Shown here one piece after another: positions 12,380 through 31,330 of a stretch of DNA of 32,255 bases. Both the position numbers and the translations under genes were made by a program. The stretch comes from Clostridia bacterium. Its GTDB lineage: Bacteria; Bacillota; Clostridia; Oscillospirales; CAG-272. Under the pieces are notes generated by a model, which was not told the origin of the DNA, ran no database searches, and saw only the letters and a list, made by a program, of their open reading frames with translations. The stretch lies in NCBI GenBank assembly GCA_017625065.1, contig JAGALS010000060.1, positions 1 through 32,255 on the forward strand, in the 5' to 3' direction. Position 1 is the stretch's first letter. The number at the start of each line of letters is the position of its first letter.

Positions 12380-13561
12380 TTATTTGTTTTCAAAAACGAA
12401 GGTGTGATTTCCGTCGGGCTGATAGATCATCTGCTCGGTGGTATCGACAAGATATTTGATGTGCGGGCGCTGGAAGCGAGAGCCGTTCTTGTATTCCAAG
12501 ACCTCCTTGCCGCAGGGCCAGTAGGCAATTTTGGGGTTGCATAGCATATACAGATCGGTGTGGTAGCAGCCGATGCCGTGGTGGGCGATCTGCATCACGT
12601 CGCACTTCATATGCTTGCCGTACATATCGATCAGGCACTGCGCGCCGTCGGGATGCAGGTCCGCAAGAAAGACAAAGCGCGTTACGCCCTTTCTCACGGC
12701 CTTTTTTGTGACCTTGCCTTTGACGACGGCATCAACGACCAGGCTGGTATCGTTATAGTTGTGCATCATATCGGGGAAGATATCCTCATGGGTGTAAAGC
12801 ACCGTCAGCGTGATACCGGGCAGGTGGAATTGCTGACCCGTGTGTGCCTTCATATAGACACAGCCCTCAAAGCGCTCGCTTGTGGCGGCGAAGTTAAAGT
12901 GGCGCACAAAGCCGTCAAGACAGCTTTGATAAACAAGATCGGGGGCATCGTTGCCGACCAGCATCTTCACGGTGACCTTGTCGGCGTAATTGGTTGCAAA
13001 TTTGCAGAACACGCCGCAGTGGTCGCCGTGGCCGTGCGTCACGATCCACGCCGAAATGACGATGTCGTCGATGCCGTCGGGCTTTTGCTCAAGCATCGTG
13101 TTATAAAGCAGCTCCGCGTTGTAATCAAAGCCCTTGCCGCCGTCGATCACGACGAAGGTGCCGTCCTCAAGGCGGATGAGGTATCCCATGCTTGTATAGA
13201 CCTTGGGATCAAAATAGAGCCCCAGCTGCGTGACGGCAATGTCGCAAAGCTTCTTGTATTCGGCCGGGTTGGTCGGTAGGATCGCGTTGTTTTGCGCGAT
13301 CGCGCGCAGCTCCGCCGTTTTCTTGAGGTAGTAAACGTGGATAGAGAATTGCTCTTTGCAGTAACTAGCGCTGCAAATACAAGGATTTTCAAGCTCCTGA
13401 TGCTTGGTAAAGCCAAGCTCTTCCAGCTGCGCGGTGTAGGCAAGCATCATGTTTTTGCTTGCGTTTTTCCAAAAAAACATCGTGGCTCCGTCGGAGCAAT
13501 CGTAAAGCGCGTCATAATGCTTTTCGTTTATATAGCGGGGAAGTCCGGGATAAATACTCAT
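12380..13561 (-). CDS. MBL-fold metallohydrolase, ComEC-like type, tandem paralogue 1
   Basis: The last of three adjacent paralogues. The 393-residue protein has an N-terminal domain of about 120 residues that I do not recognise, rich in Cys and His (C61, C63, C68, H75), then a metallo-beta-lactamase fold. Visible fold motifs are MGYLIRLEDGTFVVIDGG (125-142), the metal site THGHGDHCG (H176, H178, D180, H181), FLADLHPDGA (D301) and QIAHHGIG (H327, H328). This order resembles the metallohydrolase domain of ComEC/Rec2, but no membrane segments are present. ATG 13561 (MSIY start shared by the three) is preferred over the in-frame TTG at 13567; GAAAGGA lies 9 nt upstream. Substrate unknown. Confidence 0.85.
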   Translation of the reverse strand: MSIYPGLPRYINEKHYDALYDCSDGATMFFWKNASKNMMLAYTAQLEELGFTKHQELENPCICSASYCKEQFSIHVYYLKKTAELRAIAQNNAILPTNPAEYKKLCDIAVTQLGLYFDPKVYTSMGYLIRLEDGTFVVIDGGKGFDYNAELLYNTMLEQKPDGIDDIVISAWIVTHGHGDHCGVFCKFATNYADKVTVKMLVGNDAPDLVYQSCLDGFVRHFNFAATSERFEGCVYMKAHTGQQFHLPGITLTVLYTHEDIFPDMMHNYNDTSLVVDAVVKGKVTKKAVRKGVTRFVFLADLHPDGAQCLIDMYGKHMKCDVMQIAHHGIGCYHTDLYMLCNPKIAYWPCGKEVLEYKNGSRFQRPHIKYLVDTTEQMIYQPDGNHTFVFENK

Positions 13562-13584
13562 AATCAAAATTCCTTTCGGGCGCT

Positions 13585-14760
13585 TTATTGTTTGTCAAAA
13601 AAGAAGGTGTGATTTTCGTCCGTGCGGTAAATGATCTGATCTGTGGTCTCAAGCAGATATTTGAGATGCGGGCGTTGCAATCGCGCGCCGTCCTTGTACG
13701 TTAAAACGGCTCTTCCGCAGGGCCAATAGGCGATACGGGGGTTGCACATGGCATACAGATCGTAAAGAGAGGGACCGATGCCGTGATGGGAGATCTGCAT
13801 GATGTCGCATCTCATATAAGCGCCATACGCGTTGATCAGGCGTTGCGCTCCGTCGGGGTGAATGTCCGCAAGAAAGACAAAGCGCGTCTCTCCTTTTTTT
13901 ATAGGCTTTTCCGTGATCTCTCCCTGAATGCCGGCATCCACCACGATGCTGGTATCATTATAGTTACGCATCATATCGGGGAAGTAATCCTCGTGGGTAT
14001 ACAGCACGGTCATCGTCACGCCCGGAAAACGGAATTGCTGTCCCGTGTGCGCTTTCATGTAGCAACAGCCCTCAAACCGCTCGCTTACAATGTTGTAATT
14101 AAAGTTGCGTCCCCAAGCACAGCCCTGATACGTAACATCGGAAATGTCATTTCCGATCAGCATTTTCACGGTGACCTTATCGTTGTAATTTCTCAAAAAA
14201 TTTCTAAGGACTCCGTAATGATCACTGTGTCCGTGTGTCAGGATCCACGCCGAAATAACGATGCCGTCAACGCCGTCAGGCTTTTGCTCCAGCATCGTGT
14301 TATAAAGCAGCTCGGCGTGGCTGTCAACGTCCTTTCCGCCGTCGATCACAACGAAGGTGCCGTCCTCAAGGCGGATCAGATACCCCATGCTCGTATAGAT
14401 GTTTGGGTCGTTGTAAAGTCCCGTCTGTGTGACGGCAACGTCGCACACCTTTTTGTAGTCATAATCGTTGATCGGCAGAACCGCATCCTTTTGTACGATC
14501 ACACGGAGCTGAGCTCTTTTTTTGAGATAGTACGTGTGAATCGATAGCTGCTCCTTGTAATAGGTCGCGCTGTGCACGCAGGGGTCATCAAGCTCCTGAT
14601 GCTTTGTGAAGGAAAGCTCTTCTAGCTGTGATACATAGGAGAGCATCATTTCCTCGGTCGCTTTCTCCCAAAGAAGCATTGTCGCGTTATCCGAGCAATC
14701 GTAAATGGCATCAAAGTATTTTTCGTTTGCGTAGTGGGGAATTCCTCCGTAAATGCTCAT
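13585..14760 (-). CDS. MBL-fold metallohydrolase, ComEC-like type, tandem paralogue 2
   Basis: The middle paralogue, 391 residues and colinear with its neighbours from MSIY to the C-terminal HTFFFDKQ. The metal site reads THGHSDHYG, so the ligands His-His-Asp-His are kept while the neighbouring Gly and Cys found in the other two are replaced by Ser and Tyr. FLADIHPDGA and QISHHGIG are also kept, so the protein is probably active but may differ in substrate. The region between them shows several changes, for example GRNFNYN in place of the longer VRHFNF stretch. ATG 14760 follows GAAAGGA, 2 nt after the stop of paralogue 3; the in-frame TTG 14766 would give an N-terminal MIM not shared by paralogue 3. 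Function unknown. Confidence 0.85.
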   Translation of the reverse strand: MSIYGGIPHYANEKYFDAIYDCSDNATMLLWEKATEEMMLSYVSQLEELSFTKHQELDDPCVHSATYYKEQLSIHTYYLKKRAQLRVIVQKDAVLPINDYDYKKVCDVAVTQTGLYNDPNIYTSMGYLIRLEDGTFVVIDGGKDVDSHAELLYNTMLEQKPDGVDGIVISAWILTHGHSDHYGVLRNFLRNYNDKVTVKMLIGNDISDVTYQGCAWGRNFNYNIVSERFEGCCYMKAHTGQQFRFPGVTMTVLYTHEDYFPDMMRNYNDTSIVVDAGIQGEITEKPIKKGETRFVFLADIHPDGAQRLINAYGAYMRCDIMQISHHGIGPSLYDLYAMCNPRIAYWPCGRAVLTYKDGARLQRPHLKYLLETTDQIIYRTDENHTFFFDKQ

Positions 14761-14762
14761 GA

Positions 14763-15950
14763 TCAATAATCCTTTCTTTCAAATACAAAAGTGTGGCTGC
14801 CGTTTGCCTGATGGATGATCTCTTCTGTGGTCTGGACAAGATATTTGATGTGCGGCCGCTGGAAGCGGATGCCGTCCTTGTATTCCAGAACGGTCGTGCC
14901 GCAGGGCCAATACGCAAAGCTCGGATGGCAAAGGGTGTAAAGCTCGTAATGGGGGCATCCGATGCCGTGGTGGGCGATCTGCATGACGTCGCACCGCATG
15001 TGCTCGCCGTACATACGGATCAAATTCTGATTACCCTCGGTGATATCCGCAAGAAAGACAAAGCGTGTTTCCCCCGCGGTCACAGGAGCCTTTGCCACCT
15101 CACCCTTGACGACGGCATCCACGACGATATTAACGTCGTTGCAGGCGCGCATGATAGCGGGGAAGAAATCCTCATGCGTGTACAGAACCGTCAGCGTGAC
15201 ACCCGGCAAGCGGAATTGCTGTCCCGTGTGCGCCTTCATATGCACGCAGCCGCCGAATTTACCGTTTGCGCTGTTGAAGTCGAACCACCGTCCGTGACCG
15301 TCAACAAAGCTTTGGTAAACAAGATCGGAGGCATCGTTTCCGATCATCATTTTGACAGTGACCTTATCCTCGTATGCGTCCATGAATTTGATGAAAACGC
15401 CGCAGTGATCGCCGTGTCCGTGTGTCACGATCCACGCCGTGATCACGATGTCGTCAATGCCATCGGGCTTTTGCTGAAGCATCGTGTCATAAAGCAGCTT
15501 TGCATCGTATTCGGGCGTTTGACCGCCGTCGATCACAACAAAGGTGCCGTCCTCAAGGCGGATCAGATACCCCATGCCCACATAAACGGCGGGGGCATTG
15601 TACGTGCCAAGCTGCGTGACGGCAACGTCGCAGACCTTTTTGTAGTCATAATCGTTGATCGGCAGCACCGCGTCACTCTGCACGATCACGCGCAGCTCAG
15701 CCGTTCTTTTGAGATAGTAAACGTGCATCACAAGCTGATCCTTGCAGTAGGTCGCGCTGTGGATACAGGCGTTGTCAAGCTCCTGATGCTTTGTGTATTC
15801 CAGCTCTTCAAGCTGCGCTACGTAGGAGCGCATCGTCTCCTCGGTGGCGTTCTTCCAATAGAACATCGTCGCGTTATCGCGGCAATCGTAAATGGCGTCG
15901 TAATCTCTGTTCTCGGCGCGGCGAGGAACGTTTGTTCTGTAAATACTCAT
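14763..15950 (-). CDS. MBL-fold metallohydrolase, ComEC-like type, tandem paralogue 3
   Basis: The first transcribed of the three paralogues (395 residues). It has the same N-terminal domain with AIYDCRDNATMFYW and KHQELDNACIHSATYCK, then MGYLIRLEDGTFVVIDGG, THGHGDHCG, FLADITEG and QIAHHGIG. The FLAD segment differs from HPDGAQ of the others, being followed by EGNQNL, though the Asp is kept. ATG 15950 follows GAAAGG. It lies 26 nt downstream of the esterase-like gene, so the three paralogues belong to the same minus-strand operon as the esterase and the epimerase. No signal peptide or membrane segment is seen. Whether they act on a nucleotide, a phosphodiester or another ester is not readable from the sequence. 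Confidence 0.85.
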   Translation of the reverse strand: MSIYRTNVPRRAENRDYDAIYDCRDNATMFYWKNATEETMRSYVAQLEELEYTKHQELDNACIHSATYCKDQLVMHVYYLKRTAELRVIVQSDAVLPINDYDYKKVCDVAVTQLGTYNAPAVYVGMGYLIRLEDGTFVVIDGGQTPEYDAKLLYDTMLQQKPDGIDDIVITAWIVTHGHGDHCGVFIKFMDAYEDKVTVKMMIGNDASDLVYQSFVDGHGRWFDFNSANGKFGGCVHMKAHTGQQFRLPGVTLTVLYTHEDFFPAIMRACNDVNIVVDAVVKGEVAKAPVTAGETRFVFLADITEGNQNLIRMYGEHMRCDVMQIAHHGIGCPHYELYTLCHPSFAYWPCGTTVLEYKDGIRFQRPHIKYLVQTTEEIIHQANGSHTFVFERKDY

Positions 15951-19783: not shown

Positions 19784-20215
19784 TTATTCCTCACCCAGCA
19801 CAAGGAAGCGCACCGCACGGCGGTAGCCCTCAAAGCCGAGCCCCATATAGGTCTTTTTGGCGACCAGGGAAACGAAGGAATGGTGTCTGAACGCCTCACG
19901 TTCCATCACGTTGGAAATATGCACCTCGACCGTCGGGATAGCAACTGCGGAAAGCGCGTCAAGGATCGCCACGCTCGTGTGGGTGTAAGCACCGGGATTG
20001 ATGACGATGCCGTCAAATTTCCCATACGCCTCTTGAATTTTATCCACGATCGCGCCCTCGTGATTGGATTGATACAGCTCGCATTCAGCGCCGACCTCAG
20101 CGACCGCCGCTTTGATGAATTCGCAAAGCGCGGCAAAGCTTTGGTCGCCGTAAATGCCGGGCTCACGGATGCCGAGCATATTGAGGTTCGGACCGTTTAT
20201 CACAAGCAATTTCAT
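19784..20215 (-). CDS. aroQ: 3-dehydroquinate dehydratase, type II
   Basis: Converts 3-dehydroquinate to 3-dehydroshikimate, the third step of the shikimate pathway. The 143-residue length and the start MKLLVINGPNLNMLGIREP are diagnostic of the type II enzyme. Y22 in the PGIYG segment is the expected catalytic tyrosine, NPGAYTHTSVAI (about 73-84) is the substrate loop, and VEVHISNVMEREAFRHHS carries the conserved histidine and the Arg/Glu lid. ATG 20215 overlaps the stop of the aroEK gene by 4 nt, so translation is coupled. It is the last gene of the minus-strand aro operon, with a T-tailed hairpin downstream at 19602-19631. Confidence 0.97.
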   Translation of the reverse strand: MKLLVINGPNLNMLGIREPGIYGDQSFAALCEFIKAAVAEVGAECELYQSNHEGAIVDKIQEAYGKFDGIVINPGAYTHTSVAILDALSAVAIPTVEVHISNVMEREAFRHHSFVSLVAKKTYMGLGFEGYRRAVRFLVLGEE

Positions 20216-21453
20216 TGTGTAAGTACCTCCAGGATCTTTGTCATATTTGCCTCGATATCCCGTGAGATGGGGATGATCACATCGGCGGCGGCACGGTAAA
20301 GGGGCAAGCGCTCGGCGTATAGCACGGTGGGCGTTTTCTTTTGCGAAAGGGGTCTGCCGTCGGTGGGCAGGTCGTCGGGCTTGATATCAAGGAACAGCAC
20401 CGTTCCGTTTTGATGCATCAAGGGCAGATTACGTTTCTTTGTGACAGCACCGCCCCCCGTCGCCACTAGAAGCCCGCTTTCCTTGCAAATATCGGCAAGC
20501 ACCGCCGTTTCACGGGCACGGAAGCCCTCCTCACCCTCGCTTGCGAAGATGTCGGGGATGCTTGTGCCTGCGGCCTTCACGATCTCGGCATCGCAGTCCA
20601 CAAATTTGCGCCCAAGGCGCTCGGCGATCAGCTTACCAAGCGTCGATTTGCCGCAGCCGGGCATACCGACAAGCACGATGTTTTCGGTCTCACGCGCGAT
20701 CGACTCGGTGATCCTTTTGACCTCAAGATCGTCGATCGTTGTGTCTAAAAACAGCTCCGCCGCGCGTCTTGCCTGCGACACAAGCATCAAAAGCCCGTTG
20801 CGGTGGGGGATGCCTCTTGCCTCGGCTTCGAGCAAGAGCGCCGTGCGCGCAGGGTTGTAGATCATATCAAAAACCGCTTCAAGCCTTGGAAAAGCATCAA
20901 GCGAAACAGGTGAAACGCCGTTTTTGGGGTACATCCCGACGGGTGTCGCGTTGATCAGAATTTCAGCGTCTGCGTGGCGGTCAAGGTTGCTATAATTGTC
21001 CTCGCCGCTGCGCGAGATCACCACAACGGCGCGCGCGCCCATATCGGCAGCGACTGTGATCGCCGTGCGGGAAGCGCCGCCCGAGCCAAGCACGACCACC
21101 TTTTTACCCTCAAGCGACACGCTCAAGTCCTTTACAAGATCGGAAAAGCCCGCATAGTCGGTGTTGAAGCCCGCAAGAGAGCCGTCTGGGCGGCGCACGA
21201 CGGTATTGACCGCGCCGATGCGCTGCGCCTCGGGCGAGATCTCGGCAAGGTGGGGCATCACGGTCTTTTTATAGGGGATGGTGACGTTCAACGCGTCAAA
21301 TTTTCCGCTTTTCAGGAAATCGCCGACCTCGTTTTCCTCAAGCTCAATGAGATCGTAGCGGTAATCGGCAAGCTCCCTGTGGATACGGGGGGAAAAGCTG
21401 TGCGAAAGCTTTGCGCCGATCAGCCCCGCGCGGATCTTGGTTCCTTCGATCAT
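20212..21453 (-). CDS. aroE-aroK: Bifunctional shikimate dehydrogenase-shikimate kinase fusion
   Basis: Residues 1 to about 250 are AroE: LSHSFSP (shikimate site, S17/S19), NVTIPYK with K62 as the catalytic lysine, FNTDY with D99, and the NADP loop VLGSGGASRT (121-130). Residues about 257-413 are AroK: Walker A GMPGCGKST (263-271), VDCDAE (D286/D288), the GFRARE arginine (R312), GGG at 333-335 and GRPL with R367. All key residues of both enzymes are present, so one chain should catalyse two consecutive-order pathway steps, dehydroshikimate to shikimate to shikimate 3-phosphate. The 413 length equals the sum of two single enzymes with a short linker and no frameshift. ATG 21453 follows GAGGTG, 9 nt after pheA. 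Confidence 0.95.
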   Translation of the reverse strand: MIEGTKIRAGLIGAKLSHSFSPRIHRELADYRYDLIELEENEVGDFLKSGKFDALNVTIPYKKTVMPHLAEISPEAQRIGAVNTVVRRPDGSLAGFNTDYAGFSDLVKDLSVSLEGKKVVVLGSGGASRTAITVAADMGARAVVVISRSGEDNYSNLDRHADAEILINATPVGMYPKNGVSPVSLDAFPRLEAVFDMIYNPARTALLLEAEARGIPHRNGLLMLVSQARRAAELFLDTTIDDLEVKRITESIARETENIVLVGMPGCGKSTLGKLIAERLGRKFVDCDAEIVKAAGTSIPDIFASEGEEGFRARETAVLADICKESGLLVATGGGAVTKKRNLPLMHQNGTVLFLDIKPDDLPTDGRPLSQKKTPTVLYAERLPLYRAAADVIIPISRDIEANMTKILEVLTQ

Positions 21454-21462
21454 CGGCGCACC

Positions 21463-22623
21463 TCACAGCATCTCGCGATAGGTCCCGAGGTAGCGGAACT
21501 TTTCGCTGCTGCTCTCAAGCTCACCAAGCAGACGCAAAAGAGCAGGGGATTCGATGGGGGATTCCAAATCGAAATAAAACAGAAACTCAAAATCGTGTCC
21601 GGGCATCGGACGGGACTCCAGCTTCGTCAGGTTGATGTTCATCGCGTCGATCTGCGTGAGCAGCCTTGAAAGGCTACCGGGCTTGTGCGGCACTGTCAGA
21701 ACGATAGAGGTCTTGTCAGCCCCCGGGTAAATTTCGGGCGTTTTGGAAATACAGATAAAACGGGTATAGTTGTTGCCGTTATCCTGAATGTCCTCCTCCA
21801 GCACCGTAAGACCGTAAATGTTTGCACAGTCCTTGTTGGCGATGGCAGCGTAGCCCTCGCCCGCGTCCTTTACGAATTCAGCCGCCTTTGCCGTATTGGG
21901 GAAGGCAGTCGCCTTCACGCCGTTCATGCCTGCGATATAGCCCGCGCATTGCGACAGCGCCTGCTGATGCGACACGATTTCCTTAATATCCTCTTTTTTG
22001 GTGCCGGGCTTGGCGAGAAGACAGTGATCGACCTTCAAGCGAAGGGCGCGCACAATATAGAAGCGATGGTTGCTCATCAGATCATAGATCTGCGTGACCG
22101 ATCCCGCTGTACTGTTTTCAATGGGCAGAACGCCGTAACGGCACTCGCCGCGGTCAATGGCGGCAAACACGTCGTCAAAGGTCTTGTAAAAGCTGACCTC
22201 GGGGCAGGCAAACAGCTTTTCGGTCGCCTTGAGGGAATACGCGCCCTCCACCCCTTGACAGGCGACCTTGGCGCGTGCGGGGAAGAAGGGGGAGGTTTCC
22301 TTCACGGCAGTGGAGATCTTCTTTTCAAGCTTTGAGGAGGTGTTCAGTCGCTCGTGCTGATATGCCTTTGAGATCGAAAGGATCGAGGCGTAAAGGGTGC
22401 GCGCGTACTCCTCCATTTCGGGGCCCGCCAGCTCCGAGACCTTGCAAAGCAGCGCGCGCTCACGCGCCGCGTCGGTCACCGCCTTGCCGACCGAGCGCTT
22501 ATATTCCGCTACGTCTGCGCAAACGTTCATGCGCTCGCAGAACAGCTTCACCAGCTCGCGGTCGATGCGGTCAATGGCTTCGCGTGACTGTTCCAGAGAG
22601 GGGATGTTTTTTTCGTTGCTCAT
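21463..22623 (-). CDS. pheA: Bifunctional chorismate mutase-prephenate dehydratase (P-protein)
   Basis: Makes phenylpyruvate from chorismate by way of prephenate. The 386-residue protein has an N-terminal AroQ-type helical chorismate mutase (about 8-95, REAIDRIDRELVKLFCERM), a prephenate dehydratase domain (about 115-290, with QGVEGAYS, GVLPIENSTAGSV and NNYTRF, the TRF being the catalytic motif), and a C-terminal ACT domain (about 300-385, VPHKPGSLSRLL and KLESRP) expected to bind phenylalanine for feedback inhibition. ATG 22623 follows GTGAGG; an in-frame GTG at 22635 is less well placed. Eight nt separate it from the aroC stop. Confidence 0.96.
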   Translation of the reverse strand: MSNEKNIPSLEQSREAIDRIDRELVKLFCERMNVCADVAEYKRSVGKAVTDAARERALLCKVSELAGPEMEEYARTLYASILSISKAYQHERLNTSSKLEKKISTAVKETSPFFPARAKVACQGVEGAYSLKATEKLFACPEVSFYKTFDDVFAAIDRGECRYGVLPIENSTAGSVTQIYDLMSNHRFYIVRALRLKVDHCLLAKPGTKKEDIKEIVSHQQALSQCAGYIAGMNGVKATAFPNTAKAAEFVKDAGEGYAAIANKDCANIYGLTVLEEDIQDNGNNYTRFICISKTPEIYPGADKTSIVLTVPHKPGSLSRLLTQIDAMNINLTKLESRPMPGHDFEFLFYFDLESPIESPALLRLLGELESSSEKFRYLGTYREML

Positions 22624-22631
22624 AATTTGCC

Positions 22632-23711
22632 TCACTTATCAAGTAAAAGATCAAGCACCGTAATGGCGGCAGCTGCCTCTACCACGGGTACGGCGCGCAC
22701 GACCACGGTGGGATCGTGACGGCCTGGGACGGAAATGGTGGTGTTTTCCATACGGGAAAGCGAAACGGTGTCCTGCTCCTTCGCAATGGAAGGGGTGGGC
22801 TTGAAGCCGACGCGGAACACAAGGGGCATACCGTTGGTCATACCGCCCAGAATACCGCCGCAGTGGTTGGTCGCGGTGACAACGGATTTGCCGTTGGTGC
22901 GGTAGCTGTCGTTGTTTTCACTGCCAAAGAGCGCGCTTGCGCCAAAGCCCTCGCCAAACTCCACACCCTTTACGGCAGGGATCGAGAAAAGAAGTGCGGA
23001 AAAACGACCTTCAACGCCCGAAAACATATGCTCGCCAAGTCCCGCAGGCAGTCCTGTCACGGCACATTCGATCACGCCGCCAAGCGAATCCTTTTCAGCG
23101 CGCGCGGCGACGATCGCTGCTTGCATCTGCTCACCCGCATTGCTATCCAGCACAGGGAAGGGCAAGGATTTTAAAGCCTCCAGCTCCGTTGCCGACACGT
23201 TAACGGCATCAAAGCGCTTGTCCTTGACGGTATGGATCGACTCGATGTGCGCGCCGATGTGGATGCCGCGCGCCGCAAGATATTGCAGCGCCATGCCGCC
23301 CGCGATGCAAAGGGGGGCGGTCAGTCTGCCCGAAAAGTGTCCGCCGCCGCGCAGATCGACCGTGTTGCCGTACTTGCAAAGTGCGGCGTAATCGGCGTGC
23401 CCGGGGCGAGGGGTGTCGTAAATGAAGGAATAATCCTTGGAATGGGCGTTGGTGTTTCGGATGATGGCGTGCAGCTCCTCACCGTTGGTCGTGTCGTCCG
23501 TCAGCCCCGTGAGAAATTCGGGGGTGTCAGGCTCTTTTCGGGGGGTGGAAAAAGCACCGCCGTTCGGCGCGCGCCGTGCCATAAAGGCTTGCAGCGCCTC
23601 GCGGTTAAGGGCAAAGCCACGGGGGAAGCCCGAAAGGCGCATGCCGATCTCGGCATCGTGTGAGCCGCCGTATATCGAAAGATGCAGATTGTTGCCGTAT
23701 TGATTTGCCAT
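22632..23711 (-). CDS. aroC: Chorismate synthase
   Basis: Converts EPSP to chorismate with reduced FMN as cofactor. The 359-residue protein has GNNLHLSIYGGSHDAEIG at the N-terminus (the conserved His after GGS), a RRAPNGG segment, the diagnostic GRPGHADY-like PRPGHADYAALCKYG and SGRLTAP, NDSYRTNG and a C-terminal PGRHDPTVVVRAVPV with the conserved HD pair. The first motif is of the GGSHD variety seen in some Clostridia rather than the common GESHG. ATG 23711 follows GAAAGGAG; the upstream in-frame start at 23726 has no ribosome binding site. It is placed between aroA and pheA in the operon, the order of the pathway. Confidence 0.96.
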   Translation of the reverse strand: MANQYGNNLHLSIYGGSHDAEIGMRLSGFPRGFALNREALQAFMARRAPNGGAFSTPRKEPDTPEFLTGLTDDTTNGEELHAIIRNTNAHSKDYSFIYDTPRPGHADYAALCKYGNTVDLRGGGHFSGRLTAPLCIAGGMALQYLAARGIHIGAHIESIHTVKDKRFDAVNVSATELEALKSLPFPVLDSNAGEQMQAAIVAARAEKDSLGGVIECAVTGLPAGLGEHMFSGVEGRFSALLFSIPAVKGVEFGEGFGASALFGSENNDSYRTNGKSVVTATNHCGGILGGMTNGMPLVFRVGFKPTPSIAKEQDTVSLSRMENTTISVPGRHDPTVVVRAVPVVEAAAAITVLDLLLDK

Positions 23712-23722
23712 AAAAGCTCCTT

Positions 23723-24994
23723 TCAATCCGCAGATTTGATCAGTTCAAAGAAGGTGGGATAGGATTTTGACACCGCCTCTGTACCGAGAATGGTCACGTC
23801 GCCCGAAGCGCACAGCGCGGCGATGGCGGCACTCATTACGATGCGGTGATCACCCGCACCCTCAACCGTGCCACCCGTCAACGCACGTCCTTCGACGATC
23901 AGCCCGTCCTCGGTTTCGCACACACAGCCGCCCAAGGCGCGCAGAAGCGCCGCCGTGGTGGCGATGCGATCGCTTTCCTTCAGGCGCAGACGCGCCGCAC
24001 CCGAAATGACGGTCTTTCCCGTTGCCACCGAGGCAACGACCGCGAGAATGGGCACAAGATCGGGGATCTGCTTCGCGTTGATCGTGATGCCGCGCAAGGG
24101 GGCAGGGAAAACGGTAACAGCGCCGTTTTCGGCATCCTTTTCAACCTTCGCACCAAAGCGTTGCAAGAGGTCAAGAATTGCCATATCTCCTTGCGAGGAG
24201 GCAAGGTCAAGTCCCGTCACCGTGACGGGGTGATCGCCCACAGCACCCGCCACAAGCGGGAAGGCAGCGCCCGAAAAATCGCCCTCGGGATAAAGCACCT
24301 CTGGTGAGTGCAAGGGCTGCTGCAAGCGACCGGGAATGCGGTAAACACGCCCGTTTTCAAGGTGTTCGGGCGTAGCACCGAAGGCGGCAAGGGCGTTCAC
24401 CGTCATATCAATATAGGGTGCTGACTCGATTTCACCCGTTAAGGTGAGAGTCGAGGGGGCATTCAAGAGCGAGAGGGCAAACAGCAGCCCCGTGATAAAC
24501 TGCGAGGAAACATTTGCCGCGATCGAATACTCACCCGCTGTCAGTTGCCCTTTGACAGAAAGCGAGCCGTCGCTGTTGTCGGTACAGACAACACCGTGCC
24601 GCAAAAGCTCACTCGTCAGCGGCTCCATCGGGCGGTCGGGTAAGCGCCCGTGCCGCAGAAACGTGGTATCCGCCCCCAGCGCCGCCGCAACGGGCACAAG
24701 AAAGCGCAAGGTAGAGCCAGATTCGCCGCAATCGGCAATTGCCCCATAAACGGGTGTGGAAATCGGTGTAATATATAGCCATTCGTTTGTGCTTTCAGCA
24801 GTCATTTCCGCACCTGCGCCAAGCGCCTTCAGCACGCGCAAGGTCGCGGCAATATCCTCGCCCGCACCCGAAAGGCGTATGCGCGTTGGCGCATCGGCAA
24901 AGGCGGCGGCGATCATCATACGGTGCGCCGCCGATTTCGAGGTCGGCGCAACCGTTTCACAAACGAATTTCGGCTTACGTAATGTAATATTCAT
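23723..24994 (-). CDS. aroA: 5-enolpyruvylshikimate-3-phosphate synthase
   Basis: Joins phosphoenolpyruvate to shikimate 3-phosphate. The 423-residue length fits. Visible motifs: the N-terminal PTSKSAAHR (S, K, R bind substrate), GESGSTLRFLVP (about 89-100), RPMEPL, SSQFITGLLFALSL, a PDLVPILAV catalytic-aspartate segment and RLRLKESDRI, with a final EGAGDHRIVMS. The start MNITLRKPKF is at ATG 24994 after AGGAGA. It is 11 nt upstream of aroC. An unusual 135-nt gap with direct repeats separates it from aroB, in an operon otherwise packed within about 12 nt. I could not classify it as glyphosate sensitive or resistant by eye. Confidence 0.96.
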   Translation of the reverse strand: MNITLRKPKFVCETVAPTSKSAAHRMMIAAAFADAPTRIRLSGAGEDIAATLRVLKALGAGAEMTAESTNEWLYITPISTPVYGAIADCGESGSTLRFLVPVAAALGADTTFLRHGRLPDRPMEPLTSELLRHGVVCTDNSDGSLSVKGQLTAGEYSIAANVSSQFITGLLFALSLLNAPSTLTLTGEIESAPYIDMTVNALAAFGATPEHLENGRVYRIPGRLQQPLHSPEVLYPEGDFSGAAFPLVAGAVGDHPVTVTGLDLASSQGDMAILDLLQRFGAKVEKDAENGAVTVFPAPLRGITINAKQIPDLVPILAVVASVATGKTVISGAARLRLKESDRIATTAALLRALGGCVCETEDGLIVEGRALTGGTVEGAGDHRIVMSAAIAALCASGDVTILGTEAVSKSYPTFFELIKSAD

Positions 24995-25129: not shown

Positions 25130-26182
25130 TCACAACCCGCCCTTAAAAAATTCGCAAAGCGTATCCGCGGGAACGGGGTAAAGACGGCTGTTGCCGATCT
25201 TATCGGGCAGAACCAGCGTGATGCTGCCGCCCTTGCGCTTTTTATCGGAAAGCGCCACCTTCGCCAGCGCATCCGCGCCGTAAGGGCATTCGGTGGGCAG
25301 ATGATAGGCCTTCAGCATCGCTTCGATATGCGTGGGAACGTCCTTTTCGCAAAGCCCTGCGGCGACCGCAGCCTTTGCCATCAGCACCATACCGATGGCG
25401 ACTGCGCTGCCGTGGGAGATCGTAAAATCCGAAAGCATTTCGATCGCGTGTCCTGCCGTGTGTCCCAAATTGAGCAGCTGCCTTGCGCCCGTATCGCGCT
25501 CGTCCGCCTCAACAAGATCACGCTTGTCCGCAACACAGTGGGCAATGATCTCGTCGGGGGCATCGGCAAAGGGCTTTTTCAGCATTTCCAAAAGCTCGGG
25601 GTCGTTGATGTATCCGTACTTGATCACCTCAGCGCATCCGTCGGCAAAAATATTGTCGGGGAGTGTTTGCAGAGTGTCGGTGTCGCAAAAAACAGCCGAG
25701 GGCTGATGAAAAGCGCCGATCAGATTTTTGCCGATGGCAAGATCGGCACCCGTTTTGCCCCCCACCGAGGAATCGACCATCGCAAGCAGCGTGGTGGGGA
25801 ATTGCACAAAGGGGATGCCGCGCAGATAGGTCGCCGCGGCAAAGCCCGCCATATCACCGACAACACCGCCGCCAAGAGCTGCAACGAAATCGGTACGGGT
25901 GAGGTTTGTTTTTGCCAGCGCTTCCCAAAGCGAAACGATGGTCGCCGCAGTTTTGGAGGCCTCGCCGTGGGGGAATACAAATTCAAAAACGGTGTAGCCC
26001 GCACTCTCAAGGGATGCGATCAAGAGGTCGCCCCAAAGCGCGCGTACCGTGTCGTCCGAAACCACCATCACCTTGCGCGGTGTGGGGAAGAGCGCTTGCA
26101 GCGAAGCGCCCGCACTCTGCAGCAGACCGCTGCCGATCTGTACGTCATAGGTCCTGGAAGCTCTTACCGTAACGGTCTTCAT
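25130..26182 (-). CDS. aroB: 3-dehydroquinate synthase
   Basis: Converts DAHP to 3-dehydroquinate, the second step of the pathway, using NAD and a metal ion. The 350-residue protein has PHGEASKT, the NAD motif GGGVVGDMAGFAAATYLRG (about 104-122), FPTTLLAMVDSSVGGKTG, CAEVIKYGYI with the metal-binding glutamate, LNLGHTAGHAIE and ISHGSAVAIGM (two metal-binding histidines), and SDKKRKGG. All key residues are intact. ATG 26182 overlaps the tyrA stop by 4 nt (ATGA) and follows GAGGAG. Codon use and motifs resemble the other aro genes, with no sign of recent transfer. Confidence 0.97.
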   Translation of the reverse strand: MKTVTVRASRTYDVQIGSGLLQSAGASLQALFPTPRKVMVVSDDTVRALWGDLLIASLESAGYTVFEFVFPHGEASKTAATIVSLWEALAKTNLTRTDFVAALGGGVVGDMAGFAAATYLRGIPFVQFPTTLLAMVDSSVGGKTGADLAIGKNLIGAFHQPSAVFCDTDTLQTLPDNIFADGCAEVIKYGYINDPELLEMLKKPFADAPDEIIAHCVADKRDLVEADERDTGARQLLNLGHTAGHAIEMLSDFTISHGSAVAIGMVLMAKAAVAAGLCEKDVPTHIEAMLKAYHLPTECPYGADALAKVALSDKKRKGGSITLVLPDKIGNSRLYPVPADTLCEFFKGGL

Positions 26183-27039
26183 GCCTGCTCCTCGCTTCCT
26201 TGGTCGACGCGTTCTTTTGCAAGACGGCCCTCGCGCAAAAGCGCCTTCAAGCGCTTTGCGTCACCTGCCGCCATCGCGTCACGGTAGGCGGTCAGCGCGC
26301 TGATGATGCCGTCGATCTCCTCGGTCAGATAGTCGCTGTTTTCCATAAACAGCTCGGTCCACATCTGCTCGTTGAGCCAAGCCACACGGGTCAGATCCTT
26401 ATAAGAGCCTGCGGAAAAGCCCTTGTGCACCTGCGCGTTGGGGCTCTTGACGTAGGCATTCGAGACCACGTGAGCAAGCTGCGAGGTAAAGGCGATGATG
26501 CGGTCGTGCTTCTCGGCAGTCGATACCGTGATCGAGCCAAAGCCGACGGGCAGCAACAGCTCGCGTACACGCGAAAGCAACGTCTCGTTCTCGGGATCCT
26601 CGGGCACGATTACCATCGGTGCGCCGCGGAACAGCCCGTCCTTGCTGTTTTCAAAGCCCGAATACTGCGTGCCCGCCATGGGGTGTCCGCCGACGAAGTG
26701 GAAGCCGTATTCACGTGCCATACCAAAGCAAGCGCCGCAAATGCCGCGCTTGGTGCCGCACAGGTCGATCACCACCGACCCCTTGCGCAGATGGGGTGCG
26801 CTGACGCGCAGCCAGGCCATAGCGGCAGCGGGGTAGACCGCAAGAAAAATGACGTCGCACTCGGATGCGGTCTCGGCGGTGAGCTTACCGCAGATCGCGT
26901 TCTGCGCAAGTGCGCCCTTCAATGCTTCTTCGCTGATATCGTGAGCCAGCACGGCGTGTCCTGCCGTACTGTATGCTCTTGCCATAGAGCCGCCGATCAG
27001 TCCGAGACCGACCACGCCGACCTTTAATTGATTACTCAT
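26179..27039 (-). CDS. tyrA: Prephenate dehydrogenase
   Basis: Oxidises and decarboxylates prephenate to 4-hydroxyphenylpyruvate, the tyrosine branch. The 286-residue protein has an N-terminal NAD-binding GLGLIGGS (about 11-18), IDLCGTKRG, GGHPMAGT with the catalytic histidine, HDRIIAFTSQLAHVVS and a helical C-terminus. No ACT or chorismate mutase domain is fused, so chorismate mutase activity must come from PheA or another enzyme. ATG 27039 follows GAAAGGA. The start lies 8 nt inside the 3' end of the tetR-like gene, so the two are probably translated together. Confidence 0.96.
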   Translation of the reverse strand: MSNQLKVGVVGLGLIGGSMARAYSTAGHAVLAHDISEEALKGALAQNAICGKLTAETASECDVIFLAVYPAAAMAWLRVSAPHLRKGSVVIDLCGTKRGICGACFGMAREYGFHFVGGHPMAGTQYSGFENSKDGLFRGAPMVIVPEDPENETLLSRVRELLLPVGFGSITVSTAEKHDRIIAFTSQLAHVVSNAYVKSPNAQVHKGFSAGSYKDLTRVAWLNEQMWTELFMENSDYLTEEIDGIISALTAYRDAMAAGDAKRLKALLREGRLAKERVDQGSEEQA

Positions 27040-27589
27040 TTTCGTTTGTTCCTTTCTTGATGTGACAGCCATCGCAGGTGAGACGGCAGCAGATCTCAGC
27101 CATTTCCTCACAGCTTTCCTGCCGCCCGTTTTTGAGCCATTCGATGAATACGTTATAAAACGCACCCGCCAGATACAAATGCCGATAGCGCGCCTCGGCG
27201 CTGTCGTTTTCGGGGCGGAAGGTGATCGCCATATTTTTGTTGATGTTCTCTAAGATCAATTCGCCAAGGTGCGCGCGGTAGGCGGTGATGCCAAGATCAC
27301 GGTAAGCGCCAAGCTGCCCGAACAGCTCGCGGTAATAATCCAATATTTCCTCGCGGGTGTTCATACCCGATATTTTTTCGTGAATGGAAATGCCCACCTC
27401 TTCCATATACTTGTTGAGAATGTCTTCTTTTGAGGTGTAGTTGCGGTAATACGCCATACGGGAAACACCCGCTTTGCGGGTGATCTCGGTAATCGAGATC
27501 GAATGATAATCCCGTACCTTCATCAGCTCGATCAGCGCTGTGACGATGTATTCCTTTGCCAATCGGTTGGATTCGTTTTTGATTTTCAT
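27032..27589 (-). CDS. TetR family transcriptional regulator at head of the aro operon
   Basis: A 185-residue regulator with an N-terminal TetR DNA-binding domain: EYIVTALIELMKVRDYHSIS followed by ITEITRKAGVSRMAYYRNYTSKEDIL (helix-turn-helix about 34-53). The C-terminal ligand domain is helical and ends in a cysteine-rich tail (C150, C157, C158, C162, C165). ATG 27589 follows TTGGAGG; the frame stays open to 27697 but this would run through the promoter and operator. It is the first gene of an eight-gene operon and overlaps tyrA by 8 nt. A palindrome near its own transcription start makes autoregulation likely, and the same site touches the opposite promoter. Ligand unknown; an aromatic intermediate or an acyl compound are possibilities. 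Confidence 0.9.
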   Translation of the reverse strand: MKIKNESNRLAKEYIVTALIELMKVRDYHSISITEITRKAGVSRMAYYRNYTSKEDILNKYMEEVGISIHEKISGMNTREEILDYYRELFGQLGAYRDLGITAYRAHLGELILENINKNMAITFRPENDSAEARYRHLYLAGAFYNVFIEWLKNGRQESCEEMAEICCRLTCDGCHIKKGTNENE

Positions 27590-27630
27590 GAACAAACCTC
27601 CAAAAAATGTCACAGAAGTCATAGAAAAGA

Positions 27631-27659
27631 TTGACAGTTTATAAATAAAGTGGTAAAAT
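27631..27659 (+). promoter_or_regulatory. Promoter of the fakB-fakA-DAHP synthase unit
   Basis: TTGACA (27631-27636), a 17-nt spacer, TAAAAT (27654-27659). Transcription should begin near 27666, at the first base of the palindrome below, and run rightward into the opposing promoter, giving a leader of about 88 nt before the fakB start. Confidence 0.85.
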
Positions 27660-27665
27660 CTTAAT

Positions 27666-27679
27666 GTTACGAATGTAAC
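27666..27679. promoter_or_regulatory. Candidate TetR operator shared by two opposing promoters
   Basis: GTTAC-GAAT-GTAAC is a perfect 5-bp inverted repeat with a 4-bp centre. It lies midway between the -10 boxes of the plus (27654-27659) and minus (27688-27693) promoters, and covers both predicted start points. TetR proteins bind such short palindromes near start sites, and one is encoded first in the minus-strand operon. Confidence 0.65.
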
Positions 27680-27687
27680 TGTTCTAA

Positions 27688-27716
27688 AGTGTAGCACGCG
27701 AACGGGCGCTTGTCAA
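27688..27716 (-). promoter_or_regulatory. Promoter of the tetR-tyrA-aro operon
   Basis: On the minus strand, TTGACA (27716-27711), a 17-nt spacer and TACACT (27693-27688). Transcription should begin near 27681 and give a leader of about 92 nt before the tetR start. No T-box or leader peptide was recognised in that leader. Confidence 0.85.
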
Positions 27717-27753: not shown

Positions 27754-28617
27754 ATGAGTTCTTATGTGATCGTGACCGACTCCTCCTCCGACCTGTCGCC
27801 CGAGCTGTTGGAGCGTTATAATGTGCTTTCTATCCCGCTTGCCGTTACCATGGACGGGATGGAGCCTGTTCCCAATGATGAGATAGATACCAAAGAGTTT
27901 TATGCGTTTTTGCGTAGCAAGAAGGGGGCAAAGACCTCCGCTGTCGCAATCGAGACCTTTAAAGATTTCTTCAAGCCCTACCTGGACGAGGGGAAGGATA
28001 TCCTTTACCTTGGCTTTTCGTCCGGTCTTTCCAGCACCTATAACGCGGGCTTTGTCGCGGCAAAGGAGCTGTCGGAGGAATATCCCGACCGCACCGTTGC
28101 CACCGTTGATACCCTGTGTGCTTCCTTGGGGCAGGGCTTGCTCGTCTACCACGCGGCAAAGAGACGCGACGAGGGTGCCAGCCTTGAAGAGGTCCGCACC
28201 TGGGTGGAAGAGAACAAGCTGAATCTTGTACACCTGTTTACGGTGGACGATCTGTTCTTCCTCAAGCGCGGCGGACGTGTCAGCGCGGTGACCGCGGTGG
28301 CGGGCTCAGCGCTTGGCATCAAGCCCATTATGCACGTGGATAACGACGGGCATCTGATCAAGATCGGCATCAAGCGCGGCAGACGCGCTTCGCTTGACGG
28401 GCTTTGCAGCCGTATGAAGGAGCTTGCCTTTGACCCCGCAAACCAAATGGTATTCATCAGCCACGGTGATTGCGAGGAGGATGCCAAGTATCTGGCAGAC
28501 CGTATTCGCCAGACCATGGGTGTTCAGAATTTTGTGATCGATTTCGTCGGCCCTGTGATCGGTGCACACTCCGGTCCCGGCACGATGGCATTGTTCTTCC
28601 TTGGAAAGGAGAGATGA
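27754..28617 (+). CDS. fakB: DegV/FakB family fatty-acid-binding protein
   Basis: DegV proteins bind one long-chain fatty acid. As FakB they present it to the kinase FakA, giving acyl-phosphate for phospholipid synthesis. The 287-residue protein begins IVTDSSSDL with the conserved TDS motif, then TSAVAIETFKDFF, the fatty-acid carboxylate-binding GFSSGLSSTYN (about 89-99), KRGGRVSA, and a C-terminal GPVIGAHSGPGTMALFF. ATG 27754 follows GAAAGGAA. It ends 1 nt before the fakA start, so the pair is translationally coupled, which supports the FakB role over a stand-alone DegV. Confidence 0.92.
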   Translation: MSSYVIVTDSSSDLSPELLERYNVLSIPLAVTMDGMEPVPNDEIDTKEFYAFLRSKKGAKTSAVAIETFKDFFKPYLDEGKDILYLGFSSGLSSTYNAGFVAAKELSEEYPDRTVATVDTLCASLGQGLLVYHAAKRRDEGASLEEVRTWVEENKLNLVHLFTVDDLFFLKRGGRVSAVTAVAGSALGIKPIMHVDNDGHLIKIGIKRGRRASLDGLCSRMKELAFDPANQMVFISHGDCEEDAKYLADRIRQTMGVQNFVIDFVGPVIGAHSGPGTMALFFLGKER

Positions 28618-28618
28618 G

Positions 28619-30250
28619 ATGAAGTTAGACGGTAGAAAATTCAGTGAAATGTGTATTTCGGCTGCCAACGCGTTGAATAACGATCAGGCAGTCATCAACG
28701 CCCTTAATGTATTTCCCGTTCCCGACGGTGATACGGGCGTGAATATGAGCCTGACGATGAGCACCCTGCAGCAGCTCACCAACTTTGACGGCACCGTTTC
28801 GGATTGCGCGACAAAGGTGGCGGACTATATGCTCCGCGCCGCAAGAGGCAACTCGGGTGCGATCCTGTCGCTGTTCTTCCGCGGCTTTGCAAAGGCGGTG
28901 AAGGGACTTGACGAGGTGGATGCGCTGGACGTGGCAAAGGCGCTCAATCAGGGCACCAAAGAAGCTTACGGCGCCGTTATGACCCCCACCGAGGGCACGA
29001 TCCTGACGGTTATGCGTATGTGTGCCGAGCGCGCGATCGAAGCGACCGAGCGCGGTGAATATCAGGGCGACATCGTGGGACTGTTCGGGCTTATCCTGCG
29101 CTCCGCAAACGAAGCGCTTGCTATGACCCCCGACCTGCTTCCCGTTCTGAAGGAAGCCAACGTCGTGGATGCCGGCGGCAGCGGCTTTGTGACCGTGATT
29201 GCCGGTATGCTTGCGGCACTCAATGGCACGCCCGTTGAGCGTGTGGGCGGTAATGATACTGCTGTAAGTACCCCCGGTGTTGCCGATTTCGGTAGCTTTG
29301 ACAGCGCCGATATCAAGTTTGGCTATTGCACCGAGTGTATCGTTGATAAGAGCGACTCCTTCAAGGGAGAGGGTAAGTGCGACGATCTGCGCGATTATCT
29401 GGCAGGTCTTGGCGACAGCCTTGTGTTCATTGACGACGAGAATATGATCAAGATCCACGTGCACACCAACCATCCCGGCAAGGTGCTGGAAAAGGCACTG
29501 CGCTATGGCTCGCTTTATACCGTTAAGATCGAAAATATGCGTAATCAACATACCGAGCTGATCGAAGAAGCACCCGCGGCTCAAAAGGAGCCTCGCAAGC
29601 CCGTTGGCTTTGTTTCCATCGCCGTGGGAGAGGGCGTTGCCGCCACCTTCCGTGATCTTGGCGTTGGATATATCGTGCCGGGCGGTCAGACGATGAACCC
29701 CAGCACCGACGACGTGCTGAAGGCGATCGATGCCGTGAATGCCGATACCGTGTTCATTTTGCCGAACAATAAAAATATTTTCCTTGTTGCCGAGCGCGCC
29801 GCCGAAATGACCGAGGACAAGAAGATCATCGTCATTCATACCGCGCACTTCACGCAGGGCTTTACCGCTATGATGATGTATGACGAGACGGTCAGCCCCG
29901 AGGAAAATGCGGCTGTGATGGAGGAAGTGATCCAGGGTGTCACAACGCTTTCCTTTACCCGTGCCGTGCGCGATGCCGATATTGACGGACTTTCCATCAA
30001 GGATGGCCAGGTGCTTGGACTTGTCGGGGGAAAGGTCAAGGCGGTTGCCGCTGAGATCCCCGAAGCGCTTGAGAAATTGCTTGCGTTTGTCGACGCCCCC
30101 TCCTTCCTTTCTGTCTATTGCGGTGCCGATGCGACCGACGAGCTGACCGCGAAGATCGAGGAGATCCTCGGTGCGAAGCTGCCCGATGCCGAGCTTACCG
30201 TGCTTGACGGCGGCCAGCCCCTTTACGACTACGTTATTGCTGTTGAATGA
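28619..30250 (+). CDS. fakA: Fatty acid kinase catalytic subunit FakA (DAK2/DhaL-domain protein)
   Basis: Phosphorylates FakB-bound fatty acids to acyl-phosphate using ATP. The 543-residue protein has an N-terminal DhaL-like ATP domain (about 1-200) with the Mg-binding NVFPVPDGDTGVNM (D36, D38 and N42) and RAARGNSGAILS, a middle domain including the CTECIVDKSDSF segment and HVHTNHPGKVLEKAL (about 280-294), and a C-terminal domain (about 320-543). The order matches FakA (YloV) rather than dihydroxyacetone kinase subunits. ATG 28619 follows GGAAAGGAG. In many Firmicutes this gene follows an asp23/yloU-type gene, whereas here it follows fakB. Confidence 0.92.
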   Translation: MKLDGRKFSEMCISAANALNNDQAVINALNVFPVPDGDTGVNMSLTMSTLQQLTNFDGTVSDCATKVADYMLRAARGNSGAILSLFFRGFAKAVKGLDEVDALDVAKALNQGTKEAYGAVMTPTEGTILTVMRMCAERAIEATERGEYQGDIVGLFGLILRSANEALAMTPDLLPVLKEANVVDAGGSGFVTVIAGMLAALNGTPVERVGGNDTAVSTPGVADFGSFDSADIKFGYCTECIVDKSDSFKGEGKCDDLRDYLAGLGDSLVFIDDENMIKIHVHTNHPGKVLEKALRYGSLYTVKIENMRNQHTELIEEAPAAQKEPRKPVGFVSIAVGEGVAATFRDLGVGYIVPGGQTMNPSTDDVLKAIDAVNADTVFILPNNKNIFLVAERAAEMTEDKKIIVIHTAHFTQGFTAMMMYDETVSPEENAAVMEEVIQGVTTLSFTRAVRDADIDGLSIKDGQVLGLVGGKVKAVAAEIPEALEKLLAFVDAPSFLSVYCGADATDELTAKIEEILGAKLPDAELTVLDGGQPLYDYVIAVE

Positions 30251-30301: not shown

Positions 30302-31330
30302 ATGCAAATGAATTTCATCCGCAAGCTTCCCATTCCCCAGGAAACCAAGGACAAGTACCCCGTGCCGCTGAAGGCAGTCGAGCAAAAGGAATTGCGCGAC
30401 ATTGAGATCAAAAAGATCTTCAGCGGGGAATCCGATAAGCTGTTGCTTGTGATCGGTCCTTGCTCCGCCGACAGTGACGAGCCCGTTATGGAGTATGTCC
30501 ATCGTCTTGCCCGCCTGCAGGAGCAGGTCAAGGATAAGATCGTCATCGTCCCCCGTATCTACACCAACAAGCCCCGTACCACGGGCGACGGCTATAAGGG
30601 TATGCTGCATCAGCCCGACCCCTCGGGTATGCCCGACGTTTATAAGGGGATCCTTGCCATCCGTGAGCTGCACACCCGTGTGCTGACCGAAACCGGACTT
30701 TCCACCGCGGATGAAATGCTCTATCCTGCCAACCACCGTTATCTGTCCGATCTGCTTTCCTATGTGGCGATCGGTGCGCGTTCTACCGAAAACCAGGAGC
30801 ATCGTCTGGTCTCCAGCGGTCTTGGTATTCCCGTCGGCTTGAAGAATCCCACGGGCGGCGATCTCAGCGTTATGATGAACTCGATCACCGCCGCACAGCA
30901 TGCCCATTCCTTCATTTACAGAGGTTGGGCAGTCGAAACGCAGGGCAATGAGCACGCTCATGCCATTCTGCGCGGCTACGTCGACGAGCAGGGCGCAAGC
31001 CACCCCAACTATCACTATGAGGATCTTGTGCGCTTGGTGGCACTCTATGAAAAATCGGGCTTGCAGAACGCTGCCGTTATCGTGGACTCCAACCATGCCA
31101 ACTCCGGCAAAAAGTACGGCGAGCAGCCCCGTATCTGTAAGGAAGTGCTGCATTCCTGCCGCCACAATGCCGACGTGAAGAAGATCGTCAAGGGCTTCAT
31201 GATCGAAAGCTACCTGGAGGACGGATGCCGCAAGATCGGTGAAGAGGGCTTTGGCAAGTCGATCACCGACCCCTGCCTTGGCTGGGAAAAGACCGAAAAG
31301 CTGATCCTTGATATTGCTGATCTGGCTTAA
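30302..31330 (+). CDS. aroF: 3-deoxy-7-phosphoheptulonate synthase (DAHP synthase, AroG/F/H type)
   Basis: Joins erythrose 4-phosphate and phosphoenolpyruvate, the first committed step of aromatic synthesis. The 342-residue length and the motifs VIGPCSADSDEPVMEY (metal cysteine), PRIYTNKPRTTGDGYKG, GARSTENQEH, GLKNPTGGD, QGNEHAHAILRG and IVDSNHANSGK identify the type I-alpha (E. coli AroFGH-like) enzyme. No ACT or chorismate mutase domain is attached; in this type feedback comes through the N-terminal region. The start ATG 30302 has a weak ribosome binding site (AGAAAGAAG); an alternative ATG lies at 30308. It is the only aro gene on the plus strand here, third in the fakB-fakA unit. The isozyme symbol is not decidable. 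Confidence 0.94.
   Translation: MQMNFIRKLPIPQETKDKYPVPLKAVEQKELRDIEIKKIFSGESDKLLLVIGPCSADSDEPVMEYVHRLARLQEQVKDKIVIVPRIYTNKPRTTGDGYKGMLHQPDPSGMPDVYKGILAIRELHTRVLTETGLSTADEMLYPANHRYLSDLLSYVAIGARSTENQEHRLVSSGLGIPVGLKNPTGGDLSVMMNSITAAQHAHSFIYRGWAVETQGNEHAHAILRGYVDEQGASHPNYHYEDLVRLVALYEKSGLQNAAVIVDSNHANSGKKYGEQPRICKEVLHSCRHNADVKKIVKGFMIESYLEDGCRKIGEEGFGKSITDPCLGWEKTEKLILDIADLA

Follow-up and report, generated by a model that had tools for sequence, protein, structure and literature searches.

A putative face-to-face promoter region shared by two aromatic-biosynthesis gene units and probably controlled by the adjacent TetR-family regulator

An 86-bp region within the window (the whole 32,255-nt stretch of DNA that was analysed) is proposed here to serve an aromatic-biosynthesis gene cluster as a common control region. 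We consider it likely that an autorepressing TetR-family protein governs the common aromatic pathway, together with the phenylalanine and tyrosine branches, through this one face-to-face region. A previous sequence-only reading of the same DNA had suggested a single switch acting at a shared site, and the comparison of relatives described below supports this suggestion, pointing to one site, probably bound by the adjacent TetR protein, that would control both units.

Results

Two inward-pointing promoters enclose an operator-like palindrome

The two predicted promoters point toward each other between positions 27631 and 27716. On the plus strand, promoter P+ (27631..27659) consists of a -35 box TTGACA (27631-27636) and a -10 box TAAAAT (27654-27659) separated by a 17-nt spacer and would drive degV-fakA-aroF. 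On the minus strand, promoter P- (27688..27716) consists of a -35 box TTGACA (27716-27711) and a -10 box TACACT (27693-27688), again with a 17-nt spacer, and would drive tetR-tyrA-aroB-aroA-aroC-pheA-aroEK-aroQ. Direct reading together with a consensus scan gave 11 of 12 consensus matches for P+ and 10 of 12 for P-, each with a TG ahead of the -10 box, verifying the near-consensus, inward-facing promoters with 17-nt spacers that had been described in the sequence-only reading. The -10 boxes lie 28 bp apart, and the palindrome GTTAC-GAAT-GTAAC stands in that gap, again as previously claimed. This operator-like palindrome (GTTACGAATGTAAC; 27666..27679, no strand) spans both predicted start points. 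When starts were assumed to lie 7 nt past each -10 box, the earlier figures of 88 and 92 nt for the leaders and 16 nt for the overlap of the 5' ends were reproduced, and the predicted start points lay approximately 15 bp apart. An operator-like half site, TGTGACA (27608..27614, minus strand), is situated at a constant distance ahead of the tetR start codon.

Judged from sequence alone, the region therefore has the form of a face-to-face operator, with two complete inward promoters whose transcripts would overlap at a shared site. It does not have the form of a pseudo-symmetrical bidirectional promoter, because its two inward -10 boxes are separate and 28 bp apart; promoters of that class are described as having a symmetric -10 region from which transcription starts in both directions, commonly with 10, 18 or 23 bp between the starts (PMC12825309).

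The two units encode one biosynthetic pathway

The minus-strand genes begin with tetR (27032..27589), whose 185-aa product has profile matches to TetR_N and TetR_C_8. They continue, all on the same strand, with tyrA (prephenate dehydrogenase; 26179..27039, overlapping the end of tetR by 8 bases), aroB (3-dehydroquinate synthase; 25130..26182), aroA (EPSP synthase; 23723..24994), aroC (chorismate synthase; 22632..23714), pheA (chorismate mutase-prephenate dehydratase; 21463..22623), an aroE-aroK fusion (shikimate dehydrogenase N domain plus shikimate kinase; 20212..21453) and aroQ (type II dehydroquinase; 19784..20215). The plus strand carries degV (DegV/FakB-like protein; 27754..28617), fakA/yloV (fatty acid kinase A-like, DAK2; 28619..30250) and aroF (class I DAHP synthase; 30302..31330), as well as mscL. 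Because the gene spacing is tight, we infer a single transcription unit on each strand. Jointly, the genes of the two strands span the route from DAHP through chorismate to the precursors of phenylalanine and tyrosine. Both arms thus belong to one biosynthetic pathway, with aroF of the window standing third on its strand after degV and fakA. The sequence-only reading had placed the tetR gene first in one unit, which holds; what it lacked was the pathway under control, here the aromatic amino-acid genes.

No riboswitch or T-box was matched at the promoter locus at the Rfam gathering score. Elsewhere in the same genome seven T-box matches were obtained, four of which exceed the cut-off, and FMN and SAM riboswitches at 1218-1349 and 2820-2906 of the window score over the gathering threshold. 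The window also contains two similar adjacent open frames on the minus strand (12380-13567 and 13585-14766; LIMSIY...), an apparent tandem duplication.

The facing arrangement, rather than the palindrome by itself, exceeds chance expectation

Within 4 kb, three promoter-like sites were counted against a shuffle mean of 2.2 (sd, 1.2), which is not clearly above chance. The exact motif GTTACN4GTAAC occurs at three places in 2 Mb, against approximately 1.9 estimated for equal base use, and the lone palindrome was accordingly dropped as evidence. One of the other two exact occurrences lies in a long hairpin (L001) and one inside an open frame (L002). With up to one mismatch allowed, the motif was rarer in this genome than in the reversed control (25 versus 89). 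The combined arrangement was searched for as TTGACA-N17-TANNNT opposite another such promoter at 15-45 bp. This facing pair is beyond chance, since it was found once in the 1.99 Mb of the genome and 0 times in the reversed control. Across 21 genomes of the genus, the search returned 16 places, 14 of them the present locus and 2 in G306, a genome without a TetR match; the reversed control again gave 0.

Both promoters and the palindrome are conserved within the genus

Near relatives with named records are metagenome-assembled genomes of Clostridia or Oscillospiraceae whose source, where stated, is deer, goat or sheep gut. A TetR match was present in 19 of the 21 genus genomes (own included), among them 6 of 6 with a completeness of 90% or more; the two genomes without one are 82% and 70% complete. 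Eighteen loci from relatives plus the window made up the comparison set of 19, of which 18 have a divergent partner. In all 18 relative loci aroB lies downstream of tetR, with tyrA between them in 16 (it is absent there in L072 and L078). Opposite tetR, aroF follows directly in 10 relatives, degV-fakA in 7, and neither in 1 (L078). Behind degV-fakA, aroF was found in six of those seven relatives, and the contig of the seventh stops before that point.

Since degV and fakA come directly behind P+ in the window, as they also do in seven relatives, a fatty-acid signal is conceivable, whereby TetR would couple lipid uptake to aromatic synthesis. We regard this as quite unlikely, however, given that ten relatives possess the same TetR and operators with aroF directly opposite and no degV-fakA.

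Wherever the divergent gene order is found among same-genus relatives (17 of 17), both promoters and the palindrome are retained. The sequence-only reading had proposed, as a check, to look for relatives that preserve this order but lack the palindrome; 0 of 17 lack it, and three have one arm mismatch. P+ is present in all 18 divergent-partner loci, window included (with TTGACT in L070 and L077 and an 18-nt spacer in L069), and P- in all 19 loci, with an 18-nt spacer in L066 and 17 nt otherwise. The arms of the central palindrome are exact in 16 of 19 loci and carry one mismatch in L068, L069 and L070. To quantify conservation, pairwise identity among 18 loci was computed for the 51 columns of the predicted elements (promoters, palindrome with its centre, and upstream half site) and was 0.92, versus 0.46 in the other 66 columns of 27600-27716; the promoter and palindrome columns had been fixed beforehand by the sequence-only reading, and the half site was picked after viewing the alignment. 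None of 5,000 random column draws, which ignore shared descent, reached 0.92. The relatives are not independent of one another, because one arrangement was inherited by all of them.

The distance between the -10 boxes is 28 bp in 13 of the 18 divergent-partner loci and ranges from 27 to 33 bp across all 18. The sequence-only reading had raised the idea that colliding polymerases or alternate use could set a ratio. This conserved gap, together with a distance of about 15 bp between the predicted starts and a 16-nt overlap of the transcripts, would also suit a ratio-setting or bistable switch in which the facing promoters, besides being repressed, interfere by exclusion or collision, so that the outputs of the TetR operon and the aroF operon are anticorrelated. 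Competition of this kind is described at strongly activated bidirectional promoters of E. coli, but in the same account basal transcription was too low for competition at all five E. coli promoters tested (PMC12825309). Anticorrelation would moreover be metabolically odd for two units serving one pathway, and a shared operator explains the fixed spacing equally well. Interference therefore appears to us a rather unlikely addition to joint repression from the shared site.

A relocated aroF in L078 leaves the putative operators in place

In L078 (G246), aroF and pheA- and tyrA-like genes lie upstream of tetR and in the same direction. No credible facing promoter was found in this locus, where the best match carried 4.5 penalty points versus 0.5-1.5 in the other 18 loci. 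P- and two exact palindromes are retained, and the stretch from operator to tetR is shortened. The relocated aroF has a promoter of its own (TTGACA-17-TATAAT), and ahead of aroF-pheA-tyrA, from 12978 downwards on the minus strand, lies a leader open reading frame, MTASKFFYYFYYFAKGCPTFVKSEM, encoding FFYYFYYF. This leader looks like a Phe/Tyr attenuator and points to phenylalanine and tyrosine as a relevant signal. A simple scan found no terminator behind it, so that the peptide alone speaks for attenuation. As a natural experiment in one species, L078 is suggestive only.

An aroF match was present in 133 of 196 genomes of the family. Upstream stretches of up to 500 bases were surveyed at 30 aroF loci, 4 of them from the present genus, with G246 outside the sample. 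A short open frame with four consecutive aromatic residues was found at 1 of these 30 loci (L133, LFFFY). The Phe/Tyr leader was consequently dropped as a family-wide device, and the one in L078 is apparently local.

Relatives with aroF directly opposite tetR possess a putative operator array

Where aroF directly faces tetR (ten loci), imperfect copies of the palindrome are positioned exactly 15 bp on either side of the central site, where they coincide with both -10 boxes. On the aroF side the copy is present in 10 of 10 loci; on the tetR side it is strong in 9 of 10, L077 having a weaker one. At the corresponding positions of the window, the sequence is degenerate. The central site of the sequence-only reading thus stands as a palindrome between the promoters, but in relatives it belongs to a more extended operator region with partial repeats.

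Each locus contributed one central site to the training of a site matrix. In 293 kb covering the 18 relative loci, 41 sites scored at least 13, of which 39 lie upstream of tetR; 18 of the 39 had been used in training and 21 had not. High scores of central sites are circular as a result of this training, and the informative matches are the flanking and outside-genus sites. Across the 21 genus genomes, GTTACANNNGTAAC matched at the present locus in 16 and at 9 further places. These further places amounted to 10 strand matches versus 26 in the reversed control, leaving a second target, and with it a wider regulon, unsupported. No recurrent site away from the locus was shown in the genus, and other sites were few. 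A second palindrome, TGTGACAAATTTTGTCACA, was observed between the -35 box of P- and aroF in L071, L072, L073, L074 and L079.

The half site GT[GT]ACA was seen in 18 of 19 loci, always equally far ahead of the tetR start (for L068, a GTG start was used). In its longer form, TGT[GT]ACA, it is 28 bases from the end of the tetR start codon and shows a pairwise identity of 0.95. It may be either a half operator or an RNA or translational element. TGTGACA was also seen directly ahead of the ribosome site in two homologues from outside the genus, L021 and L022.

The central palindrome could itself function at the RNA level, by folding into a 5' hairpin that protects the two messages. Each 5' end is predicted to form a 5-bp stem with a 4-nt loop, and in L068 and L069 a G-U pair can still form on one strand despite the altered arm. 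The stem is short, however, and the deviations in the three mismatched loci are one-sided, none of them compensatory, with the pair broken on at least one strand. A hairpin would also leave unexplained the outer copies on the -10 boxes of ten relatives, although each of these lies within the leader of the opposite transcript as well. On balance, we judge an RNA role highly improbable and favor a site read in DNA by a regulator.

The site tends to accompany the TetR protein

The TetR_N helix-turn-helix profile scored 32.2 bits against a cut-off of 24, which places the protein in the TetR family, and an inverted repeat with the appearance of an operator lies near its own promoter, as is typical of the family. 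The profile of the dihydroxyacetone kinase regulator DhaS (TIGR02366) scored 27.5 bits, below its equivalog cut-off of 129. A PDB sequence search returned 34 TetR-type sequences, the best by profile being 4mk6, deposited as a probable dihydroxyacetone kinase regulator; no ligand clue emerged from these 34.

Of 23 homologues outside the genus, 22 were scored for sites, L023 being excluded as a short match; the resulting p values come from 22 tests and are uncorrected. Among the three with the recognition helix SRMAYYRNY, GTTAC-type palindromes occur upstream in L051, as two tandem copies 15 bp apart, and in L021, while no site in L022 was convincing (shuffle p, 0.14). With the helix SRMTYYRNY, sites of the type GTGACA-N2-TGTAA were found in L035 (p, 0.003) and L036 (p, 0.023); L034 was weak (p, 0.083), and L033 and L037 had none. 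L040 (GRASFYRNF), L044 (GRATFYRNF) and L046 (ARASFYRNF) have GATACA-N2-TGTATC in place of the GTTAC type, and six GRVSFYRN-type homologues have less perfect forms.

The aro genes of the window are absent beside the outside-genus homologues in 20 of 20 stretches (L082-L101, 6.6-19 kb), so the pairing of this TetR with aro genes is local to the genus. L051, from another genus but with the same helix, has its two site copies, and the 12 kb inspected there contain no aro genes; this links the site to TetR and not to the aro genes. The site thus tends to go with the protein and not with the pathway, as far as these sequences indicate. No common theme was seen among the neighbors of distant homologues, judged from open frames only. 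Beside L051 (G041:C86), a possible facing promoter was noted by eye, together with an open frame that we take, from its N-terminal letters, to resemble a lipid glycosyltransferase.

These observations bear on whether a different regulator might read the site, with tetR a mere neighbor. Palindromes of such size are common targets, and L022 shares the helix yet lacks a convincing site. Against this, recurrent sites are restricted to the present locus within the genus, in another genus the site is found with a TetR of the same helix and no adjoining aro genes (L051), and it has survived in L078 despite the departure of the partner gene, tetR having stayed. We hence consider a different regulator very unlikely and take the adjacent TetR protein as the one that probably binds the site.

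Discussion

In the mechanism that we propose, TetR bound to the palindrome would cover both start points and silence two mutually exclusive promoters together, from which autorepression and joint control of both pathway halves would follow. RNA polymerase has a footprint of about -55 to +20, and because the two footprints overlap here, both promoters would not be occupied simultaneously. The P- arm would be an eight-gene operon comprising tetR and the enzymes from dehydroquinate synthase to chorismate along with those of the Phe and Tyr branches, and the P+ arm would be a transcript carrying aroF, the entry enzyme. In the ten relatives, three tandem sites with a 15-bp period would widen the block to include both -10 boxes. 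A metabolite or end product of the aromatic pathway, on the Phe/Tyr side, would most likely set its release or tightening; an aromatic ligand is suggested by the gene content and by the replacement in L078. We infer binding, repression, transcription as operons and the ligand from the comparisons given above.

More tentatively, and with a slight lean against it as a whole, we can envisage a dedicated master regulator of the aromatic pathway in one genus, a TetR protein sensing a pathway metabolite or Phe/Tyr. It would act at one to three 14-bp sites with a 15-bp period, the outer ones fused with the -10 boxes, and graded filling of these sites would balance the entry enzyme against the rest of the pathway. 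Where aroF escaped, a Phe/Tyr-rich leader would have replaced the array.

Face-to-face promoters around one operator are found in E. coli at bioA/bioBFCD, regulated by BirA, and at argECBH, regulated by ArgR. In these systems, as proposed for the present locus, two arms of one pathway are regulated jointly from facing promoters that enclose a common operator. Their regulators are BirA and ArgR, whereas here it is a TetR protein; the genes for BirA and ArgR are located away from their bio and arg operators, and we know of no tandem 15-bp array in either system. The BirA-biotin complex is described as binding the 40-bp bioO and thereby repressing the bio operon, that is, bioA and bioBFCD (PMC4382993).

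Other systems share single features with the present one. In E. coli acrR/acrAB, the TetR-family autorepressor AcrR is described as acting from one compact region on acrR itself and on the divergently transcribed operon (PMC12825309); that region, however, is a bidirectional promoter serving efflux, whereas here two complete facing promoters with overlapping 5' ends serve biosynthesis. McbR of Corynebacterium, a regulator of sulphur metabolism, is likewise a TetR-type protein governing amino-acid biosynthesis, but it is presented as a master regulator with many operators, 23 of them predicted in C. variabile (PMC3219685), while the regulon predicted here is one locus and aromatic. The TyrR and TrpR regulons of Proteobacteria are described as controlling aroF, tyrA and other aromatic genes (PMC5343134); these regulators belong to other protein families and have several targets, in contrast to a local TetR within the operon. 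Finally, the Pc/Pr switch of pLS20 with RcoLS20 also consists of divergent promoters that overlap, and the regulator gene is transcribed from one of the two, but RcoLS20 is reported to be tetrameric, to loop DNA and to control conjugation (PMC4207663), whereas the present system is known through its sequence. No TetR regulator of the aromatic or shikimate pathway was found in titles and abstract openings of open-access papers, among the matches listed. The architecture is a known one, and the pairing of regulator and pathway is probably new.

The genus supplies natural variants of this region, with one site, with three sites and with the partner gene moved, which make the logic of facing promoters testable. 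Within it, the common aromatic pathway and its phenylalanine and tyrosine branches appear to be under the control of a local TetR protein whose operator is readable.
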